Of a DNA stretch of 34,158 bases, positions 1 to 12,660 are shown in pieces. Below the pieces are notes generated by a model. The model had not been told where the DNA came from and made no database searches. It was given only the letters and a program-made list of their open reading frames with translations. The stretch is taken from positions 1-34,158 of the IMG/VR virus record IMGVR_UViG_3300032220_002257; one strand, written 5' to 3'. This DNA comes from a virus. Position 1 is the first letter of the stretch. Every line of letters starts with the position of its first letter. The position numbers and the translations under genes are program-made.

Positions 1-777
1 CTAATAACCTATAGCTTGCCAGTAAATACCTTTAAATGGCCGTCTTGATGAACTATCCAAGTTCGTGGTTTGGTTGAGCACTGTAACCCCGATATTTGTG
101 ACATTAAACACTTGTGCCCATGTATCATTGTTAATAGCAAGAACATCAATGCAAATAGTTGAGACTACAGAAATACAAGCCGTTTCAAATGGTTCTGGAA
201 AAACCACATTATAATAACGCTCATCTGTATTCGTACCTGTAATAACTGTCATATCTTCATAAGCTATAAAGCCAGTCTGTAATCTGAAACCATTCGGCAA
301 ACTTGTCACACTAGTTGTTGGATTGGCGATCTTTGAGCCAAAAGTTAAACCGCCATCAATATGTACATTGCCATTGATAGTTCCACCAGTCTTATCATAT
401 TTATTGTTGTCTGCATTAATCCGTTCTGTACGTTCATTACTAAGATTAGCTTGAACGAAATCAATATTGCCTTGTAGTACACCATCTGCTGCTTCACGTT
501 GCGTCTTTTCTGTATCCAGCTTTTGCTGTACAGCAGCAGCCAAAGCCAACACATCATCTTCAGTCGCTAACAATTGAAAAAGCTGATCGCGTTGACCAGC
601 GTTTAATATCCGCCCATTCTTTTCAAGTAAAGCACACAGCTCTTCCTGAATGTGATTGAGCCAGTCTGGTGTCAAGTATGTTGCGTCTTGTCCAGATATA
701 TCATTGTTGTCATGAAAGCCAGTCTTACCTGCTCCATTAACATTTGGACGTGCATTGATGCTATCAATTCGTTTCAT
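1..777 (-). CDS. Tail fibre protein (short, gp53-like C-terminus)
   Basis: A 258-residue receptor-binding or fibre protein at the distal end of the tail operon. Residues about 1-60 resemble the baseplate-attachment head of Mu-type fibres. Residues about 75-130 are a charged helical stretch (repeated Glu-Arg-Asn/Thr pattern) likely to trimerise. The last 90 or so residues, ending in FKGIYWQAIGY, match the compact beta-rich gp53-like tip found at the C-terminus of many phage fibres. Its ATG abuts the stop of the gp48-like gene. At 258 residues it is short for a fibre. No fibre-assembly chaperone is visible, but the window ends at its stop codon. The fibre role is well supported by position and C-terminus; receptor specificity cannot be read. 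Confidence 0.75.
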   Translation of the reverse strand: MKRIDSINARPNVNGAGKTGFHDNNDISGQDATYLTPDWLNHIQEELCALLEKNGRILNAGQRDQLFQLLATEDDVLALAAAVQQKLDTEKTQREAADGVLQGNIDFVQANLSNERTERINADNNKYDKTGGTINGNVHIDGGLTFGSKIANPTTSVTSLPNGFRLQTGFIAYEDMTVITGTNTDERYYNVVFPEPFETACISVVSTICIDVLAINNDTWAQVFNVTNIGVTVLNQTTNLDSSSRRPFKGIYWQAIGY

Positions 778-3220: not shown

Positions 3221-4323
3221 TGCTGTTCTCCCTGAGTTGTTGCCTTGGCTTTCTTACTGCGTTTTTTCTTGGGTTGTTGTTCTTTGTAGATTAGTGGTTG
3301 TGCCCAATCGCCTTGGCGTTTAAGGTTTAAGCGCGTGGTTTTCCCTTCAGCACGTGACAGCTTCAAAGTACGGCCATGAACTGCCCATTTTGCTGTGGCA
3401 CGGCTTAAAGCGTTGGTCTCAAGATTCACGTACCAGCCAGCACGCCAAACCTTGCCATCGATAACCCAATCATTCACTGTTGCCGTGAGGCTATAAGCTT
3501 CCAGATCGTTGTCTTTTTTGATTTTTAACAGTGCAGCTTCAGCTTCAGCTTGTGTTTCAACATCGCCTAAAGTAATGATTTTAAGTCGATTAAATTGGTA
3601 TTGAGTTTGAGCTTTTGTTTGAGCAAGCAGACTTTGCGCTTCAGAGTCTTGGCTTAAAATTTTTAGGTCAGTAAAAACATTAGACACATCATTGTCATAC
3701 TGAAGACTAAGCACGTTATTTTCGTTATTGAGTGGCTTAATCAAGCGCAATGACTCTTGTACTTGGTAGGGGTTTGCAAACGGATCACCAATACTGAGAG
3801 TCCCATTTGGCTCAAACCAAACATGCTGGCCAGTCACTTGAGCTGCTTTAATAATCGCATCCCAAAGCGCCTCGCTTGGCTCGACAGAGACTTTATTCTT
3901 CAGCCAGCTGTTATCTTGAATACTTACATCATGGATGACTGATCCAAAGTCACCAGCCAACACATAACGTTGAAGTAATTCTTCTAACGTGACTTGACGG
4001 CCATTAAAGATCGGTACAGAGCAATCGATTAACTGTCCAGCCAAGTCACGGCCAGAAATTTCAAGACCATAGCCATCTCGATTGACCGCTTCAGAAATAC
4101 GGTCTGCAATGCCTGTTAAAACAACCTCATCACCATAGTAAAGCTGGACTTTTGCAGCACCTTGTACGCTGTCGGGTAATGCCTGACCACCTTGGCGAAA
4201 TAAAGTTAAATTCCAGCTGTCGGCTGGCGTATCGATCTGACTGTCACAGCTAACATTGTCCCAAGTATTGATTTCTATATCACCAATGACTAGCCGAATC
4301 GCTTTGCCCGAATTATCTTGCAT
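3217..4323 (-). CDS. Mu gpP-like baseplate hub protein
   Basis: A 368-residue protein of the Mu P (gp44) family, which forms the trimeric baseplate hub that carries the spike. The N-terminal part (IGDIEINTWDNVSCDSQID, then YYGDEVVLTGIADRI) and the segment YGLEISGRDLAGQLIDCSVP are typical of this family and of gpD/gp27-type hubs. The last 20 or so residues are a Lys-rich tail (PKKKRSKKAKATTQ) that looks disordered. Its ATG lies inside the end of the N-like gene, giving translational coupling. Confidence 0.88.
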   Translation of the reverse strand: MQDNSGKAIRLVIGDIEINTWDNVSCDSQIDTPADSWNLTLFRQGGQALPDSVQGAAKVQLYYGDEVVLTGIADRISEAVNRDGYGLEISGRDLAGQLIDCSVPIFNGRQVTLEELLQRYVLAGDFGSVIHDVSIQDNSWLKNKVSVEPSEALWDAIIKAAQVTGQHVWFEPNGTLSIGDPFANPYQVQESLRLIKPLNNENNVLSLQYDNDVSNVFTDLKILSQDSEAQSLLAQTKAQTQYQFNRLKIITLGDVETQAEAEAALLKIKKDNDLEAYSLTATVNDWVIDGKVWRAGWYVNLETNALSRATAKWAVHGRTLKLSRAEGKTTRLNLKRQGDWAQPLIYKEQQPKKKRSKKAKATTQGEQQ

Positions 4324-5518
4324 AGACGGTCAACTCCATGCCGATCTGAAGTACTGCTGGATTAATCAAATCAGGATTTAAACGACGGATTTCTTCAGCA
4401 CGATCCATGTCGCCATAAAGCGAATGAGCCAAATAATGCAAAGTGCAAGGTACTAGAATTGTGGTTTTAGTTATTGGTGGACGTACTTCAATCAGTTCTT
4501 GAATCTGCAAATGAATCTGGTCAGCGACATCTTTAAAAATCTCAATTTGATGTACTGCTTCAAAGCCAAGTCCCATACCGGTATTTGTAGATTCTGCGGC
4601 TAGTTTTCGCTCTAAATTGATTGCTTGTTGAATCTTGATGCGGTTTTGCTGACGAACAATCGCAAGGTCAACTGGTGTAAAGCTGACTTGCTTATTTTCA
4701 GACATTTCCTTGCGTACTGAAGCCACAACTTGCTGTGTGATTGCAACTGTGCTGGCAATTTGAGTTGCTCGCCATGTTTGTTTTAGCTCAGGCAAATCAT
4801 CATCATTTTGAAAAAGCATTTCAAAACGCTGAACGCGCTTAAACAGATCTCGCCATTTAGAAATGGCGGAAATTCTGGTGTCAAAGGTTGCCAAGCGTGT
4901 AACGTCATCAACCAGACCAACAATCGCATCAACAGGCGATAAAGCCGACTCGATTGCACTTTTAAACATGCCAAGGTACTGACGCGCTGCATCTACACCA
5001 TTGCGAATATTGTTGACGACACTAAAAAACTTGTTTGGATCAGCTTTTTCTAGCTTTTCAAGTGCGGCTTCCAATGTTGACGCTGGTGTATCTGAAATTG
5101 CATTGGTATCAATTGCGGTGGGCGTCGCAACGGGAATAAATAAAGGACGCTCTTTGTCTTCAGCTTGAATAAAATCAATCGAGATTTTGCAACTATCAAC
5201 GTCTTCAGCACCATGCACAATATTGTAAGTTTCAGCATTGACTTGCATCACCCCATGAATCGGATGAATTAGCTCACCTGATCCAGTCGCTACAAGTGCT
5301 GCCCAAAGCGCATCCATCTCTGTTTTATAGTTTTCGCCAGCAAAAACCGCCTCAATGCTAATTTTTAGCGGATTGTTGCCCATGTCTTCGACTGAAGCTT
5401 TATTGGAGTAAGGGGCTTGTTTGATCGCTAGAGATTTAGAGCCAGCTTCATTAGTCGTCGTACATTCAAAATGTACACCACGAAAACTTGCATCTTGCAG
5501 ATCATCTTTCCAGCCCAT
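4313..5518 (-). CDS. Mu gpN-like DNA-circulation/tail protein with LysM-like end
   Basis: A 401-residue protein of the phage DNA-circulation N-terminal family (Mu gpN). It begins MGWKDDLQDASFRGVHFEC, a clear match to that domain, and probably connects tape measure and hub at the baseplate. The last 50 or so residues, including YGDMDRAEEIRRLNP and LQIGMELTV, read as a LysM-like module as in tail protein X. The frame extends upstream to a GTG at 5533, but that codon lies in a hairpin. The ATG at 5518 has GAGG nine bases upstream and matches the family start. The SD itself is in the 3-prime arm of the 5521-5550 hairpin. Confidence 0.88.
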   Translation of the reverse strand: MGWKDDLQDASFRGVHFECTTTNEAGSKSLAIKQAPYSNKASVEDMGNNPLKISIEAVFAGENYKTEMDALWAALVATGSGELIHPIHGVMQVNAETYNIVHGAEDVDSCKISIDFIQAEDKERPLFIPVATPTAIDTNAISDTPASTLEAALEKLEKADPNKFFSVVNNIRNGVDAARQYLGMFKSAIESALSPVDAIVGLVDDVTRLATFDTRISAISKWRDLFKRVQRFEMLFQNDDDLPELKQTWRATQIASTVAITQQVVASVRKEMSENKQVSFTPVDLAIVRQQNRIKIQQAINLERKLAAESTNTGMGLGFEAVHQIEIFKDVADQIHLQIQELIEVRPPITKTTILVPCTLHYLAHSLYGDMDRAEEIRRLNPDLINPAVLQIGMELTVYAR

Positions 5519-5520
5519 AA

Positions 5521-5550
5521 CAATAAACCTCACTTTAGTGAGGTTTATTG
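5521..5550 (-). promoter_or_regulatory. Perfect 13-bp hairpin covering the RBS of the gpN-like gene
   Basis: The 13-base arm at 5521-5533 is exactly complementary to 5538-5550, with a four-base loop. Read in the minus (sense) direction, the second arm contains GTGAGG, the SD of the ATG at 5518. Folded RNA would hide the ribosome site. No T-run immediately follows in either direction, so a pure terminator role is less likely, though partial termination is possible. Confidence 0.7.
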
Positions 5551-5571
5551 TGCAAAAACAGACTGCGCTAT

Positions 5572-5590
5572 ATTAGGCGGAAAGGCTTCC
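5572..5590 (-). repeat. Late-module repeat, copy 1 (upstream of gpN-like gene)
   Basis: This copy reads ATTAGGCGGAAAGGCTTCC on the plus strand. It overlaps the last codons of the tape-measure gene on its upstream side and lies 53 bases before the gpN-like start. In the sense (minus) direction the palindromic core GGAAGCCTTTCC is followed three bases later by TAATAT, a possible -10 box. Confidence 0.8.
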
Positions 5591-5592
5591 AT

Positions 5593-7725
5593 TTATTTTT
5601 GGCCGTAGCTAAGTAAATCTACACCATGTCGCTTTTGTTCGGTCTGAGCATGTTGTGTGATTTGTTCCATCAAACCGCCACCGCCCATATTAATCACAGG
5701 TTTGTTTTGCTGGGTGACCGTAATCAATGTGCTCAGTTTATTGCTCAAGTCTTTACTGAGTTGATTTTGTTCATCCATTTTTTTGTTTTGCTCCTCCAAA
5801 GCGGCTTGCTGTTCTTTGCTTTTTTCCATTGCCATCTCAAAAAAGTCTGGGCGGTCTTCAGATGCACCAAAGAAGCTTGCGATTTTTCCATAAATTGAAT
5901 CATCCATCGGCTTAAAAGCTTCAAAACCTAGATAACCAACGGCAGCTACTCCAGCAGTTTTTAATACATTGGATGCAACAGAACCTCCATTAGGAGCAGG
6001 CGGTAAAGGTGGAATATTACGCCCGTTACGCATTGCCAAAGCAGCAATGCCACCAGCAGCACCGACAGCAGTCAATCCAACCACAGCAGCTGATGCGGCT
6101 GCTGCAATGTCCACATTCGAGGCTGCATAATCTGCCAAACCTTGCTTTAGATCACCCAGCCAGCCTGAGATACCATTATAGTTTTCAACACGGGCATTAA
6201 AACGTGCTGTATCAAATGAGCTGTCTTTCCCGTATTCCTGAGCTGCTTGACGCTCATGCGACATTTGAATGGCACCTTCAGAATTATCAATTCCTTTTTC
6301 AACATATTCTTTGAAGCCGCCTTTTTCCATATTCATTGTAATACCCATGAAAGCCATCAATGCTTGTTTATTATGGAAAATCTTACCAATTTCAGACTGT
6401 GCTGCAATCTGAGTTGCCGCCTGTACATTTTCTAAATACTCAGCATTATTGCCAGAATTCATGGCTTTCTGTGCCTTGTCTCGATATTCCCGATACAAAG
6501 GACTCTTTTCCATTTGACGATTCATAAGTATCGCCGCAGCATCCACTTCACCAATACCTTTCTCTCGCATATTTGCCGCATAAGTCGTCCAATCAAAGCC
6601 TTTACGTTTTTTACTGACACCATAAGCAGCAATTGGATCACCATCATCAACCTTAATATGCTTGGCGAAAGATAAACCTAAGTGATATTGACTAAAGGAA
6701 CCCAGCAAATCAGATAAATTAACCGCAGCGCCATCAGCAGTACCCGCAGTTTTTTTACTGAGTTGCATCATGACAAGTAAGTCTTTATAACCTTTCTCGC
6801 CAATGTAACCTGCTCCTTTGCCTTGTGTAAGAAGGTCTGGCATATAACGCGCCATGTCTCTTAATTCAAATGAACCTAATTGTCCAGCTTTCATAGCCTG
6901 ATCATTTGCTTTATTTAAATCAGTAAGACCGAAGTTACGCTGGGCAACAGTCATTAAAGCTATGTGATCAGAATCTGCACCACTGGCGAAAGCTGTACGG
7001 CTAACTAACATCATGACATCTTTTAATTCTTTAAAGTCATAAACGTTTGAAGCAGTAAGTGTATTTAACGCTTGCACCATTTGCTGCGGAGTAGCACCAC
7101 CAACGACAGTGGAATTACGAACAAAACCCTCCATTTCTGCGACTTTACTATTAAACTCACTAATCGGCATTTTTTGACCAGCAAGCACAGTGTCTGTCGC
7201 CAATGAAATTTGCTTCATGTATTCGCGAGGGTCTTTTAAATAATTAGAACCAATCATTCCAGCAGCATAACCACCTCCAGCAACAGCCGCAGCAGCACCA
7301 AAGGCATTTCCTCCAACTCCTCTGGTTGCATCTCTTTGAGCATTACCAGCTTGCTGTAACTGTTGTCGTAAACGTTCAGCTTCACGTACTTGTTGACGTA
7401 ATGAATTGATTTGTACTTGATAAGAGCGCTCTTGCTGTCTTAGCTGTTGGCTAATTAAGCTTGATGAGCGTTGCTGTTGCTGTAGCAACTGTGCAAGCAA
7501 ACGATTGGTTTGCACCATGCTTTGCCCAGTCCGAAGCTGTTGTTGTCCGTAACGACCGCCTTGCTGGACTGAGGCATTAATGTTGTTTTGAGTGCGTAAA
7601 ATCTGATTAAGATTATTCTTTTGCTGCTGTTGACCTTGATTGATATTCAAGTTCAGACGTTGCATCTGTTGCTGAGCTTGTTGACCAACAATCTGTAATC
7701 GCAGTTGAACTGTACTGGCTGTCAT
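5593..7725 (-). CDS. Tail tape measure protein
   Basis: A 710-residue tail-length ruler. The first 130 or so residues are extremely Gln-rich with heptad spacing (coiled coil). Glycine/alanine-rich hydrophobic stretches follow near residues 140-165 and 545-610, as is usual for tape measures that insert in the membrane. A second coiled coil (KEQQAALEEQNKKMDEQNQ) precedes the C-terminus. The ATG at 7725 overlaps the stop of the frameshifted chaperone frame (ATGA), so it is preferred over a GTG at 7731. The position after tube and chaperone genes and before N confirms the role. Confidence 0.9.
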   Translation of the reverse strand: MTASTVQLRLQIVGQQAQQQMQRLNLNINQGQQQQKNNLNQILRTQNNINASVQQGGRYGQQQLRTGQSMVQTNRLLAQLLQQQQRSSSLISQQLRQQERSYQVQINSLRQQVREAERLRQQLQQAGNAQRDATRGVGGNAFGAAAAVAGGGYAAGMIGSNYLKDPREYMKQISLATDTVLAGQKMPISEFNSKVAEMEGFVRNSTVVGGATPQQMVQALNTLTASNVYDFKELKDVMMLVSRTAFASGADSDHIALMTVAQRNFGLTDLNKANDQAMKAGQLGSFELRDMARYMPDLLTQGKGAGYIGEKGYKDLLVMMQLSKKTAGTADGAAVNLSDLLGSFSQYHLGLSFAKHIKVDDGDPIAAYGVSKKRKGFDWTTYAANMREKGIGEVDAAAILMNRQMEKSPLYREYRDKAQKAMNSGNNAEYLENVQAATQIAAQSEIGKIFHNKQALMAFMGITMNMEKGGFKEYVEKGIDNSEGAIQMSHERQAAQEYGKDSSFDTARFNARVENYNGISGWLGDLKQGLADYAASNVDIAAAASAAVVGLTAVGAAGGIAALAMRNGRNIPPLPPAPNGGSVASNVLKTAGVAAVGYLGFEAFKPMDDSIYGKIASFFGASEDRPDFFEMAMEKSKEQQAALEEQNKKMDEQNQLSKDLSNKLSTLITVTQQNKPVINMGGGGLMEQITQHAQTEQKRHGVDLLSYGQK

Positions 7726-8266: not shown

Positions 8267-8644
8267 TTAAAAAGTTTCGTTTAAATAATCCATTGCAAAT
8301 ATCGTGAGATCACGCAGGGTTTCACCATCCACTGCATAAGCTTCAGAAACCTGCGTAACATTACAATCAATATATGTTTCTCGGAATCCACCCGTAGGCG
8401 ACTCAATCGAAATCCGTGCATCTTCTACATCAAGCCAGCTAACAGTGTCTTTCCCATCAGGGATCACTACTGAGCATGTGATGTCATAAAGCTGAATACC
8501 TTTAGATTTGTATTTCGCTTTAAGTTTGCGGTTCATTGTTACGATTCGTTTTGCCCCATTTATTTTGGTGGGGTTAAACCGTGCACAGTCATATTCAAGA
8601 CCATCAACACTCATCACAATCGTGCTTACTGCTTCTTCAGCCAT
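8267..8644 (-). CDS. Tail tube protein (Mu gpM-like)
   Basis: A 125-residue protein immediately before the tail chaperone, where Mu-like phages encode the tube. Sequence features fit: MSVDGLEYDCARFNPTKING followed by beta-rich segments such as IQLYDITCSVVIPDG and ISIESPTGG. This is the inner tube through which DNA passes. The ATG has GAGG at good spacing. It is the first gene after repeat copy 2 and a strong terminator hairpin, so it appears to head its own transcription unit, which would suit a protein needed in many copies. Confidence 0.8.
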   Translation of the reverse strand: MAEEAVSTIVMSVDGLEYDCARFNPTKINGAKRIVTMNRKLKAKYKSKGIQLYDITCSVVIPDGKDTVSWLDVEDARISIESPTGGFRETYIDCNVTQVSEAYAVDGETLRDLTIFAMDYLNETF

Positions 8645-8765: not shown

Positions 8766-9575
8766 TTAGTACACATCAAGCGTTCCAGCAATGACATGCA
8801 TCCCACGCACCCAATTGGCAGGAATTTTTGCATTGGCACGATAGCGATCATTGGCATCTTCAGTGACCAATAATTGTGAAGCACTTTCACGAACGTTCTG
8901 TAAAATCTCAGCATCATCAAGTTGTACCAAACGCTTCAAAATAATTGAACGAACATTACGACGCTGCGGAGCTGTATTTTTGCGTCGACGTTCCTTTGAT
9001 AGATCGGCACGTACAACTTTACGGGTGTAATCAATGACCAGTGCACCGTTGATGTCCAGCATTAAGTCATCATCTGCACCCGAATCAGGATTGACACGGT
9101 AACTCGATACAGCGCGAACAATTTCAGGAAAACCATCAGCACCTGTATCGATCATGCAGACACCGCGATTTAATGCCATTTCAATACGTTCAGATTTAAG
9201 CTTGTACTGGTCAGCCACTGGTGTGATGCCACCAAGGTTAACGCCATTAAACGGCAATGCTGGATCATTCGAATCAGCCAAAGCCGCAGCAATTGCGCCA
9301 GCAAGCTCAGCTTCTTGACCAATTGCACCGTGATAGCAAACACATAAAACGCGATAAGAGCTTTTTATAGGCGCTTGCTCTGCAAAGGCTTCAGCAGCTT
9401 CAATGTCAGAAAATGGCACAATCAAAATTGCTGGTTTGTGATTGATGGCATCACTCACCGAGTTTAAGTGAGTGATCCAAGCGAGTGTATCAGCGCCAGC
9501 CGCTGGAGGCGCTGACACTGCGATGATTGTATGTCCCAAAGGGGCGATTTTGTCCAAAGTTGCTTGTAAAGTCAT
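8766..9575 (-). CDS. Tail sheath, C-terminal part (separate gene)
   Basis: A 269-residue protein corresponding to the conserved C-terminal region of Mu gpL-like contractile sheaths. Recognisable segments are DPALPFNGVNLGGI, the IVRAVSSYRV stretch, DINGALVIDYTRKVVRADL and the final ANWVRGMHVIAGTLDVY. It begins MTLQATLDKIAPLGHTIIAV, which in intact sheaths is internal. It has its own ATG with GAGG eight bases upstream, so it is translated independently. The matching N-terminal part lies at 11702-12046, separated by a 703-codon gene. Whether the two parts co-assemble or the sheath is broken cannot be decided here. Confidence 0.85.
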   Translation of the reverse strand: MTLQATLDKIAPLGHTIIAVSAPPAAGADTLAWITHLNSVSDAINHKPAILIVPFSDIEAAEAFAEQAPIKSSYRVLCVCYHGAIGQEAELAGAIAAALADSNDPALPFNGVNLGGITPVADQYKLKSERIEMALNRGVCMIDTGADGFPEIVRAVSSYRVNPDSGADDDLMLDINGALVIDYTRKVVRADLSKERRRKNTAPQRRNVRSIILKRLVQLDDAEILQNVRESASQLLVTEDANDRYRANAKIPANWVRGMHVIAGTLDVY

Positions 9576-9585
9576 ATTTATTACC

Positions 9586-11697
9586 TCAAACAGTGTTTAG
9601 GAATGCACTAATTTTCTTAGTCCATAATTGAATGCCGTTTTCTTTCGGATGAACACCATCACTCAAATAGTGCGACCATGTTCGAATGTTCAGTCCACTG
9701 GTTCTATAAAAATCAAATACTGGAATGTGGTAGATATCACGCATTTTTAATAGCGCATCGATATAAGCAATATATGGCTTGCCCTCTGGGTCTGGCAGCG
9801 TATCACTGTTTTGCTCAGGTCGATCAGGATTAGGGGTTTGAAACCAACGCGTGCGGAAAGTTGGCGTAACAAACATAATTTGAATGTGCGGGTATTTCTC
9901 CTGAATTTGCTCAATGACATAACAGGTCGCACCTATAAAAGTTGAGCCAGTTGCATCTGCTACATAAGAATCCCCAAGTGGCGTCGATGAGTAAATGTCA
10001 TTTGTGCCGAATGCGATAATCAAGTAATCCACTGTGCTGTAATCTAATGAAGACATTGCATTGATTTGAGGCATATTGTCATCATTTAGATTGTCGCGTA
10101 CCCATTCGCCTCCAGCCACCACGTCTGTCCAGTCACCAGTATTAATTGCATGGGCAAATCTATACATTGAGCCTTTATCACGACCTAAAGGACTATTTGG
10201 ATATTTAGACATGGTGTGACTTGCAAAACCAAACTTGTAAACAGTAGCCCCAAGCATTGTTGCAATTCTGTCTGGATGGTTATTACCTTCAACAATTGAG
10301 TCACCAAACCAAGCAATTTTTTTCACTTTATAAGGTGAGTTAATTGATGCGACTGTTGCGACTTCTTGCCATTTTTGAAAAGGGTAAGTGCCATACTTAG
10401 TTCGCCAAAAAAATCTGCCGTACCAAGTCATGTAGTATTGAGTCACTAAACCTGAATGATTTACAACACTTACAATCCCTGCGCCATTGGTGCTGGTTGG
10501 ATAGTTTCTAGCAGTTGTTGCATTGCCATCTTGCTGTTGACGATGATAACCAGTTGTTAAAACGTCATCTAAATTCTCAGTTGTCAACAATGATGTTTTG
10601 ATCATCATTGCAAGATCAATTTGAGCTTGTGTTGCAACTTTCCGCCAAGGTTGAAAAGCATAATTTGCGTACTTAACACGCCAATACTTTTCATTGTACC
10701 AAGTTGTATATTCTTGAATTACCATGTTGCCACGATTCAGCACTTCAAGAATACCAGCACCATTTGTACCTGTTGGATAGTTTTTGGCTAAGGTTGCTTT
10801 TGCATCATTGTCCTGACGATAAACACCGCCATCTGTAACATTATCTAGATTTTCATCACCTAGATTTGGCTTAAATACCCATGCAATATCAGCAGCATTT
10901 GGTGTTTCTCTCCATGCTGTAAAATCATAGGTGCCATATTTAGTTCGTCTGAATTTACGGTTGTACCAAGTTGTGTATTCTTGAATGACTAGACCATTTA
11001 ACGGAATTACCTCAAGAATACCAGCGCCATTTGTACCTATTGGATAGTTTCTGGCTGTTGTCGCATTACCATCTTGAGTTTGTCGGTAATACCCCTCTGC
11101 TAAGACAGTGTTGAGATTTTCTGTTGTTAGGTCTGGTTTAAAAGAAACAGTGAGTTTGAAAAGTCCAGTAGCATAATCTTTGGCTTCATTACCCATTTGC
11201 ATTGTTAATGATTTAACCAATAACAAAAGATCATCAGGTAACTTAAAAAAGTCTATGCCGTTGTAATGATATTGACCATTAATATCATTGGTTTGACTAT
11301 TATTTGCTGGATCACTAACAACATTGACAACACAATCTTTTGGTAAATTAGCGGCATCAGCAAGCATCAAGGCTTTGGTTCGATATGCTTTTGATATGCC
11401 ATTATTTCTAATCAAATACACGGCATATTCAATACGATCTATACGCTGATTTTGCTCATTAGCTTTATCTTCGATCTGTGCTGAAAGTTCTCCAATCGCT
11501 TCAAAAGGAGCAAAGTGATCTACAGGGTAAAGAGCTGCTGTACCCAAAGCGGCAACGACTGATAGTGCTAAAACAGACTTCTTAATCTTTTTGGTAGCAC
11601 CATCTTGTACTACAGGTAATAAATCATTATCACCAACTTGGTTAGCCTCACTTAACTCACTAATTTTAACAGTGAGGTCTGTGTTTGTTTCACTCAT
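9586..11697 (-). CDS. Fibre-like protein with three knob repeats and SGNH hydrolase domain
   Basis: A 703-residue protein. Residues 8-38 (KISELSEANQVGDNDLLPVV) resemble the attachment head of phage fibres. Residues 41-58 are hydrophobic. Three tandem repeats of about 89 residues (187-275, 276-366, 367-452), each with ENL...GYxRQ...NYP..TNGAGI...TWY, are pyocin-knob-like. Residues 458-703 are an SGNH/GDSL esterase with GDS (Ser467), GTND (Asn566) and DGVHP (Asp680, His683), all catalytic blocks present. It probably deacetylates host capsule or O-antigen sugars at the virion surface. It lies between the two pieces of the sheath gene, with GAGG nine bases upstream of the ATG. Confidence 0.85.
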   Translation of the reverse strand: MSETNTDLTVKISELSEANQVGDNDLLPVVQDGATKKIKKSVLALSVVAALGTAALYPVDHFAPFEAIGELSAQIEDKANEQNQRIDRIEYAVYLIRNNGISKAYRTKALMLADAANLPKDCVVNVVSDPANNSQTNDINGQYHYNGIDFFKLPDDLLLLVKSLTMQMGNEAKDYATGLFKLTVSFKPDLTTENLNTVLAEGYYRQTQDGNATTARNYPIGTNGAGILEVIPLNGLVIQEYTTWYNRKFRRTKYGTYDFTAWRETPNAADIAWVFKPNLGDENLDNVTDGGVYRQDNDAKATLAKNYPTGTNGAGILEVLNRGNMVIQEYTTWYNEKYWRVKYANYAFQPWRKVATQAQIDLAMMIKTSLLTTENLDDVLTTGYHRQQQDGNATTARNYPTSTNGAGIVSVVNHSGLVTQYYMTWYGRFFWRTKYGTYPFQKWQEVATVASINSPYKVKKIAWFGDSIVEGNNHPDRIATMLGATVYKFGFASHTMSKYPNSPLGRDKGSMYRFAHAINTGDWTDVVAGGEWVRDNLNDDNMPQINAMSSLDYSTVDYLIIAFGTNDIYSSTPLGDSYVADATGSTFIGATCYVIEQIQEKYPHIQIMFVTPTFRTRWFQTPNPDRPEQNSDTLPDPEGKPYIAYIDALLKMRDIYHIPVFDFYRTSGLNIRTWSHYLSDGVHPKENGIQLWTKKISAFLNTV
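10342..11139 (-). repeat. Three tandem ~270-bp coding repeats (knob domains)
   Basis: Codons 187-452 of the fibre/SGNH gene consist of three successive copies of one domain. Shared blocks include ARNYP or AKNYP, TNGAGI, TTWYN or MTWYG, and a final W(R/Q) segment. The copies diverge in detail, so this is an old duplication. Such repeats can be gained or lost by recombination, changing fibre length. Confidence 0.85.
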
Positions 11698-11701
11698 AAG
11701 C

Positions 11702-12046
11702 TCAACCCTCAGTCGTTAGAGTTTTCTTATTCTCAGTGCTTAAACTCGTTCCAGCTTCAGTTGTAATCTTCATAACAGTTGCTGATTGATTCAGAGATAA
11801 ACCTTGCACATCGACAAAACGATTGGTTTTGATAGCAGCCGAAATCATGCGCCCAGCTTGACTGTTTTGACCATAGATGGTGTCAGCTTGAGCTTTGTCA
11901 TAAAGATTGACAGGCATGGCATCAGTTGAGTTAGGGTCAGTTGTAATAAACAACACTCGATGATCGTTTGGAGGCAAGCCCAAGCGAACGGTATTGATAT
12001 TTACTTCCAGATAATTCCCTGGTGTTTTGATCTGAGGAATAGTCAT
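11702..12046 (-). CDS. Tail sheath, N-terminal part (separate gene)
   Basis: A 114-residue protein equal to the N-terminus of Mu gpL-like sheaths: MTIPQIKTPGNYLEVN, then GLPPNDHRVLFITTD and a domain ending about residue 85. The last 22 residues (ITTEAGTSLSTENKKTLTTE) are three short TE-containing repeats, not sheath-like, and read as a self-contained end. The ATG overlaps the stop of the gp37-like gene and has AAGGA upstream. Together the two sheath pieces total 383 residues, against about 495 for Mu gpL, so a middle segment seems missing as well as separated. Family assignment is firm; function of the fragment is unknown. Confidence 0.8.
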   Translation of the reverse strand: MTIPQIKTPGNYLEVNINTVRLGLPPNDHRVLFITTDPNSTDAMPVNLYDKAQADTIYGQNSQAGRMISAAIKTNRFVDVQGLSLNQSATVMKITTEAGTSLSTENKKTLTTEG

Positions 12047-12660
12047 TAAGTATTTTCCTTTAATTCAATTAAATCAGACTCATCCTTGAAGCCATCATCA
12101 GGCTCAAAGTGATAGTCGACATTAATTCTGATCAAATCAGCATCTGTTTCTTCTTCTTCGCGCACGCGATCTGAAGCAGTGATAGTGAATTGAGTATGAA
12201 ATTCTTGAGAGAGAACGCTGATTGATTGACTTTGAGTCTTGCCGTTAAAGATAGTCTTTGTACGACCAAGGCTGAGTGGTGCAAGTCCTTTAACATCAGC
12301 TGATGACAAGTCATTTCCAATCAAAAGTTTTTGAACATGCTTCAACATCAGGAATGTGCCGATATCGTGAATCGTGCCATGACGCTGAGTTTCTTCATTA
12401 CGCATGGAACGAGCACCAACCAGCACAACAAAAGTGATTGGATACTTGGTCTTGTCATGACCATTTTTTTCGGGTGTACCTGAGCTTTGAAACGTTACCC
12501 AAATTGCAGGGAATGTCTTTGCTAAAGACAGCAAACCATCATCGAACTCACCACCATAGGTTTTGATTTCTCGAATCCAGTTCCACTTCTTGTCTTTGAT
12601 TTGCTGAGCCAAGACATCTTTGATGCCTTGCTCGACAATGGAAAGGTCTAGGTCTACCAT
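12046..12660 (-). CDS. Mu gp37-like protein (DUF1834)
   Basis: A 204-residue protein of the DUF1834/Mu gp37 family, found between the head-completion gene and the sheath gene in Mu-like phages and thought to act in head-tail joining or tail-terminus formation. Matching features are the FPAIWVTFQSSGTPE segment and the C-terminal INVDYHFEPDDG. A very good SD (GGAGGTG) precedes the ATG at 12660, inside the end of the upstream gene. The length is normal for the family. Confidence 0.82.
   Translation of the reverse strand: MVDLDLSIVEQGIKDVLAQQIKDKKWNWIREIKTYGGEFDDGLLSLAKTFPAIWVTFQSSGTPEKNGHDKTKYPITFVVLVGARSMRNEETQRHGTIHDIGTFLMLKHVQKLLIGNDLSSADVKGLAPLSLGRTKTIFNGKTQSQSISVLSQEFHTQFTITASDRVREEEETDADLIRINVDYHFEPDDGFKDESDLIELKENT

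Follow-up and report, generated by a model that had tools for sequence, protein, structure and literature searches.

A three-gene sheath locus in a Mu-like phage

We analysed the tail sheath locus of a Mu-like phage represented by the 34,158-bp IMG/VR virus record IMGVR_UViG_3300032220_002257 (positions 1–34,158, hereafter the window). The head-tail operon lies on the strand opposite the genes for the transposase and a transposition protein. Between the gp37-type tail terminator and the tail tube, which is the position of a Mu-type sheath gene, the window contains three open genes on the same strand: one for the N-terminal part of a sheath (the N-chain), one for a fibre and one for the C-terminal part of a sheath (the C-chain; Table 1). 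Both chains match phrog_165, a full-length sheath profile of 493 positions, and the C-chain also matches Pfam Phage_sheath_1C (E=3e-6). The C-terminus of the fibre shows SGNH/GDSL homology, with the catalytic Ser, Asn and Asp/His blocks intact as GDS, GxND and DxxH motifs. Each gene is preceded by a Shine-Dalgarno-like sequence, and the intergenic gaps are 4 nt and 10 nt. A preliminary description of this DNA had identified the three genes in just these terms, as undecayed neighbours with their own starts and short gaps, and its assignments, coordinates, strands and frames were all borne out.

The phrog_165 sheath is thus represented in the window by two open reading frames and not by a single polypeptide. 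A second, full-length sheath gene, a possibility raised earlier, is absent from the record, where phrog_165 matches at the N-chain and C-chain places only, and nothing like it was found in the 12 other records or genomes checked likewise (13 including the window). The Mu-type tail is otherwise complete and open, comprising the gp37 terminator, tube, tape measure, hubs, wedges and a separate tail fibre.

The split is conserved in two Moraxellaceae lineages

A search of IMG/VR with the N-chain returned four relatives, all of them split. The C-chain search found 49 IMG/VR and 8 genome loci, from Acinetobacter wherever a host is named; those long enough display an N-chain, one or more other genes and a C-chain, while four contigs end before the N-chain. 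C-chain relatives are present in 20 of 176 Acinetobacter genomes at 59–96% identity. A wider family search added three split genomes of another lineage and one genome with a 481-aa one-piece sheath, and six more IMG/VR loci were obtained for the second lineage. Dozens of the loci retrieved, from Acinetobacter and another Moraxellaceae lineage, therefore share the order N-chain, intervening gene (X), C-chain; one-piece sheaths apart, no close relative retrieved with enough sequence for a judgement departs from it. The preliminary description had allowed that close relatives might be intact and the insertion unique to one genome; nearly all proved to be split, in the same order. Among INPHARED phages only distant sheath relatives were found. 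Both chains are conserved, the C-chain with a mean column identity of 81% and the N-chain with one of 55%. On the conservation of the split we reject a defective or inserted sheath; by such comparative evidence the split is no lesion but a conserved arrangement.

The loci (given L numbers below) fall into four classes. In class A, to which the window belongs, the fibre is separate and the N-chain ends in a distinctive tail; in class B a −1 frameshift is predicted to join the N-chain to a surface protein; class C sheaths are in one piece; and in class D the N-chain is fused in frame to a surface protein. Dropping identical C-chains left 67 distinct rows, of which class A contributes 32, class B 22, class C 7 and class D 3; the others are one long one-piece sheath and two unclear cases. 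A few of the rows have their N-chain cut off and were assigned to class A by C-chain similarity alone.

Table 1. Features of the split sheath locus and its surroundings (window coordinates; aa, amino acids).
Feature	Position	Strand	Description	Evidence
Sheath N-chain	11702..12046	(-)	114 aa: N-arm, first strands and helix of inner-wall domain, then 33-aa tail	phrog_5292 E=2e-30; phrog_165 positions 7–100; aligns with Mu gpL 9–95
Most conserved N-chain stretch, SQAGRMISAAIKTNR	11819..11863	(-)	Aligns with Mu gpL helix 72–86	Invariant S62, R66, M67, I68, A70, A71, K73; Mu helix from PMC11915804
N-chain C-terminal tail, GLSLNQSATVMKITTEAGTSLSTENKKTLTTEG	11705..11803	(-)	Tail of class A type; proposed to dock the fibre	Restricted to N-chains of class A; lacking in classes B and C
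Fibre gene	9586..11697	(-)	703 aa; own start 4 nt past N-chain stop	Frame differs from N-chain; no in-phase slippery heptamer in window N-chain
Fibre N-terminal module (KISEL...LLPVVQ...)	11368..11697	(-)	Proposed anchor	Related module of locus L010 36% identical over 107 aa
Three ~90-aa fibre repeats	10333..11145	(-)	PHROG tail-fibre/minor tail repeat; boundaries approximate	Three stretches each in phrog_6614, phrog_8239, phrog_5207
SGNH/GDSL hydrolase domain	9586..10317	(-)	Intact GDS (465), GTND (564) and DGVH (680) motifs	Lipase_GDSL_2 E=2e-11
Sheath C-chain	8766..9575	(-)	269 aa: rest of core and C-arm	phrog_165 positions 214–491, E=3e-48; structure model best matches Mu sheath 9khy, E=1e-10
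GAGG, Shine-Dalgarno-like sequence of C-chain	9584..9587	(-)	Overlaps fibre stop codon	Sequence
Mu gp37-like tail terminator	12046..12660	(-)	Directly upstream of sheath	Phage_Mu_Gp37 E=8e-33
Tail tube protein	8267..8644	(-)	Directly downstream of sheath, as in Mu	phrog_185 E=6e-21
Separate tail fibre	1–777		Beside baseplate wedge gene	

The cut falls at a loop where other sheaths carry an outward domain

The one-piece sheaths of class C (365–367 aa) consist of an N-part, a loop of ~20 aa and a C-part, and in a balanced alignment the split N- and C-chains align with their two ends. In Mu gpL the C-chain aligns with residues of about 212–491 and the alignment of the N-chain ends at residue 95, so that the cut falls where Mu gpL has about 115 extra residues. 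The idea that the middle third of the sheath has been lost was rejected, since the one-piece relatives are equally without it. The preliminary description had the two pieces adding up to less than a normal sheath; their 383 aa are indeed fewer than the 495 aa of Mu gpL but slightly exceed the length of the one-piece close relatives. Relative to these, nothing is missing from the two-chain sheath.

The Mu sheath comprises an N-arm, domains I–III and a C-arm, with domain III extending outwards, and its α-helix 72–86 contacts the tail tube (PMC11915804). This helix falls in the most conserved part of the N-chain, which should therefore be needed for a working sheath. An AlphaFold2 (AF2) model of the C-chain (predicted local distance difference test score, pLDDT, 71) and one of a one-piece relative (pLDDT 63) both have the Mu sheath as their best fold match; in the latter the cut-site loop, residues 87–110, lies between two strands and is among the lowest-confidence segments. 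In phage sheaths generally, additional domains, often Ig-like, sit away from the tube and have a suggested role in adhesion (PMC9230969). Because the cut is made at a loop that in other sheaths bears an additional domain directed outwards, the chain ends created by it should likewise face away from the tube. Taken together, the sequence comparisons strongly support the view that the contractile sheath of a large group of Mu-like phages of Acinetobacter and related bacteria consists of two chains cut at an outward-facing loop.

Surface proteins are joined to the N-chain in class D and, by predicted frameshifting, in class B

The class B N-chain is short, and 0–12 codons before its stop lies the heptamer G_GGA_AAG, in phase with an open −1 frame in 23/23 class B N-chains (18 Acinetobacter and 5 second-lineage loci). 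GGGAAAG is also the heptamer of lambda G/GT. The −1 frame stays open for 122–628 codons in the Acinetobacter loci and for 129–322 codons in those of the second lineage. Elsewhere, the in-phase heptamer has a background of nine occurrences in 292,397 codons (open reading frames of at least 100 aa). The GGA and AAG codons, with normal usage shares of 0.19 and 0.30, respectively, are invariant in all 18 Acinetobacter loci, and nearby conserved residues use several synonymous codons. In two closer pairs the ratio of nonsynonymous to synonymous substitution (dN/dS) in the −1 frame is about 0.17–0.23, indicating purifying selection; it is higher, but unreliable, in saturated pairs. Frameshifting by −1 is thus the predicted, and strongly supported, means by which the class B surface protein becomes fused to the N-chain. 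One further candidate (L124) was set aside as unclear, its −1 frame closing after 4 codons.

The modules encoded in the −1 frame are shuffled between phages. Pfam matched none of them other than BspA leucine-rich repeats in L048, and we therefore do not describe them as Ig-like. The surface modules of L100:6622-7038 and L104:6391-6810 (sheath oriented +) are 93% alike on clearly diverged sheath chains, pointing to recent module exchange. Other features of class B loci include a valine codon five before the slip site that is GTG in 16/16 cases (GTGGAT...) and that may act upstream of the heptamer as a weak Shine-Dalgarno-like stimulator; an extra gene of 174–261 aa with a TVRI[TS]-type motif near its start, between gp37 and the N-chain in L094, L095, L106 and L107; and an open reading frame judged by eye to be glycosyltransferase-like (L120:6309-6878) between the surface gene and the C-chain.

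In the three class D loci (L119, L121 and L125) the N-chain is fused in frame to a surface protein, in L119 through a GSD-repeat linker, and a separate C-chain follows. As read from these genes, ordinary translation here yields a fused N-chain protein. L125 has two tandem N-chain fusions (3708-4988 and 5025-5834; 426 and 269 aa) with different surface parts and one C-chain gene, possibly giving a mixed sheath. In L121:6491-7294 and L125:5025-5834 an in-phase GGGAAAG is retained although the surface part is in frame 0; slippage there would give a short chain, because the −1 frame closes at once.

Class A combines a separate fibre with an N-chain tail

Class A N-chains end in a tail of ~33 residues. 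In the window it includes the TTE/STE/TTE stretch remarked upon earlier, which is indeed present and which turns out to be this class-specific tail and not a decayed end. Class A fibres are 560–1228 aa long. Their starts lie between 4 nt before and 11 nt after the stop of the N-chain and use each of the three frames, from which we conclude that the fibres are translated separately. Readthrough or a +1 fusion is ruled out for this class by the use of all three frames and by the variable gaps; in the window itself a frameshift is ruled out too, its N-chain having no in-phase heptamer and its other frames being closed. The fibre cargo comprises an SGNH hydrolase in the window and L014, a SASA carbohydrate esterase in L022 and BNR-repeat domains in L025 and L031. 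Many class A loci (L009, L010, L012, L018, L022 and L024), though not the window, have a second gene of 220–450 aa between the fibre and the C-chain.

The fibre N-terminal module of the L010 type was found at five places in the 176 Acinetobacter genomes, all of them class A split-sheath loci, and nowhere in 50,697 phage records; neither the class A tail nor the fibre anchor had a match among INPHARED phages. With the exception of its near twin L002, the body of the window N-chain is closer to class B bodies (65–75% identity) than to class A ones (58–63%), and the window C-chain is closest to those of L002 (class A), L004 and L003 (both class B), whereas the tail and fibre are of class A. Tail and fibre thus seem to travel together, in the manner of a cassette. 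Their co-occurrence suggests that the tail and the fibre N-module may form a docking pair.

A probable two-chain sheath with a proposed site for surface modules

We consider it probable that these phages build a working sheath from two chains and use the cut as the attachment point for a swappable surface module. In this reading the N-arm and a portion of the inner-wall domain, with the helix that makes the tube contact in Mu, would come from the N-chain; the C-chain would provide the C-arm and all the rest, and both chains would assemble in the virion. Placed on the outside, the cut could then receive an adhesin or enzyme module. The relatives would attach it to the N-chain by fusion, some of them in frame and others, presumably at low dose, through a −1 shift at G_GGA_AAG. 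The window class has a fibre that is separate from the N-chain, in the window an SGNH esterase, and the N-terminal module of this fibre most likely docks onto the N-chain tail. The surface protein in the slot is probably carried on the sheath, a statement that we make most cautiously for the window's own fibre, and it probably serves to bind surface polysaccharide, or to trim it, along the length of the tail during adsorption. Of the two options in the preliminary description, a true two-chain sheath that goes with a surface enzyme is thereby supported, with carriage of the enzyme on the sheath as the part that we infer.

A broader proposal, to which we assign somewhat better than even confidence, is that this is the first viral two-chain contractile sheath, in which the short chain serves as a plug-in carrier for adhesins and sugar-modifying enzymes swapped between phages, and frameshifting sets the decorated share of the ~180 subunits. 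The Mu sheath has 30 hexameric rings (PMC11915804) and the lambda G/GT ratio is 30:1 (PMC5009743); by way of illustration, if lambda's efficiency and the 180 subunits of Mu apply, about six subunits per tail would be decorated.

Several observations weigh against this picture. The AF2 models are of single chains and of moderate confidence, and the Foldseek superposition of the one-piece model has a high root-mean-square deviation (about 18 Å). Docking is argued solely from co-occurrence, and the class A tails are short, of low complexity and only 19–55% identical to that of the window. The class B heptamer is followed by no consistent RNA stimulator (mean z −0.4; strong folding only in L061 and L100), and in 13/18 Acinetobacter class B loci an ATG, GTG or TTG lies 6 nt upstream of it in the −1 frame, so that X could partly arise by internal initiation.

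The chief alternative accepts the two-chain sheath but makes the window-class fibre an ordinary baseplate or neck fibre that sits in the cut and is never on the sheath. We regard it as possible but distinctly less likely than carriage. Class A fibres do start independently and unfused, N-terminal anchors for other places are common in fibre genes, and the slot would give a fibre tail-operon expression. However, the window has its own separate tail fibre beside the baseplate wedge gene, the fibre N-module is seen only beside split-sheath N-chains, the N-chain tail occurs only with the class A fibre type, and classes B and D join the occupant of this slot to the N-chain, in class B by predicted frameshifting.

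A second alternative, which we also judge unlikely, concerns history only: an intact 365-aa sheath would be ancestral, and the split would have arisen several times by insertion at a permissive loop. In its favour, additional domains generally enter phage sheaths away from the tube (PMC9230969). In the C-chain tree, however, the one-piece class C sheaths form a single clade (support 98) inside the split forms, two changes between split and one-piece suffice, and the slip site is common to both lineages. The window and L002 are sister to the class B loci L003 and L004 (support 95). The tree tentatively favours an early split followed by one later re-fusion, but it was a quick tree with weak inner branches and root and long outgroup rows.

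It is improbable that the class B downstream protein comes from internal or coupled re-initiation at an overlapping start, with no frameshift and a separate protein there too. The start codons upstream of the heptamer speak for such a mechanism, but five of the 18 loci have none in the −1 frame and one of these, L013, has none within 25 codons downstream either. Moreover, the in-phase heptamer is universal in the class and its two codons invariant where checked, the surface protein invariably lies in the −1 frame while fibres of class A occur in any of the three, and in-frame fusions exist in class D. Finally, although described phage sheath subunits are single chains and the window pieces are shorter than Mu gpL, a fibre gene recently inserted into the sheath of a defective prophage, or of a phage with a reduced or non-contractile tail (an option of the preliminary description that found no support), is very improbable given a split kept over dozens of divergent loci in two lineages, starts and Shine-Dalgarno-like sequences for every piece, intact remaining tail genes and nothing absent relative to one-piece relatives.

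Comparison with known systems

Mu gpL (gp39; phrog_165) is the closest known relative: its gene likewise precedes that of the tube, the N- and C-chains can both be aligned with it, and it gives the best match among solved structures as well as the best fold match. It differs in being one chain with extra residues at the cut point, where here there are two chains and a separate gene. The arrangement resembles in topology the type VI secretion system, whose sheath is of a homologous kind with a subunit likewise made of two chains, TssB/TssC (VipA/VipB), the small one being N-terminal; the N-arm and two strands of a shared sheet belong to this small chain, with the new termini located in the outer layer (PMC5807055). 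In that system a helical domain connected with recycling by ClpV is built from the termini, whereas here they would carry surface modules. No TssB or TssC chain appeared among the PDB sequence matches of the N-chain or C-chain alignment, and the likeness is therefore one of topology only.

In type 2 and larger sheaths with additional domains, the extra domain is part of a single chain, unlike the separate gene, or the fusion to the short chain only, found here. Programmed frameshifting adds a C-terminal surface domain to a portion of a structural protein in T3, A2 and PSA, and lambda G/GT is a further case (PMC5009743); such extended proteins have been described for major capsid and tail-tube proteins, and the window itself has no frameshift site. 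Whisker fibres run along the length of the contractile tail of phage CBB (PMC5259590), which differs in being a jumbo phage with a gp18-type sheath gene. The open-access literature searched yielded no split phage sheath and no frameshift in a sheath.

Implications for contractile tails

If our interpretation is correct, phages, like the type VI secretion system, can have a sheath divided in two at an outer loop, which would offer a natural way to put cargo on a contractile tail without jamming contraction. Programmed frameshifting would also be extended to sheath proteins. The split would explain the short proteins annotated as 'tail sheath' (phrog_5292). One-piece, split and frameshifted versions occur within a single genus, with in-frame fusions in a neighbouring lineage, making the evolution of two-chain sheaths testable there. 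For the biology of this common group of Acinetobacter prophages, the arrangement suggests that receptor binding and capsule processing may be spread along the tail.

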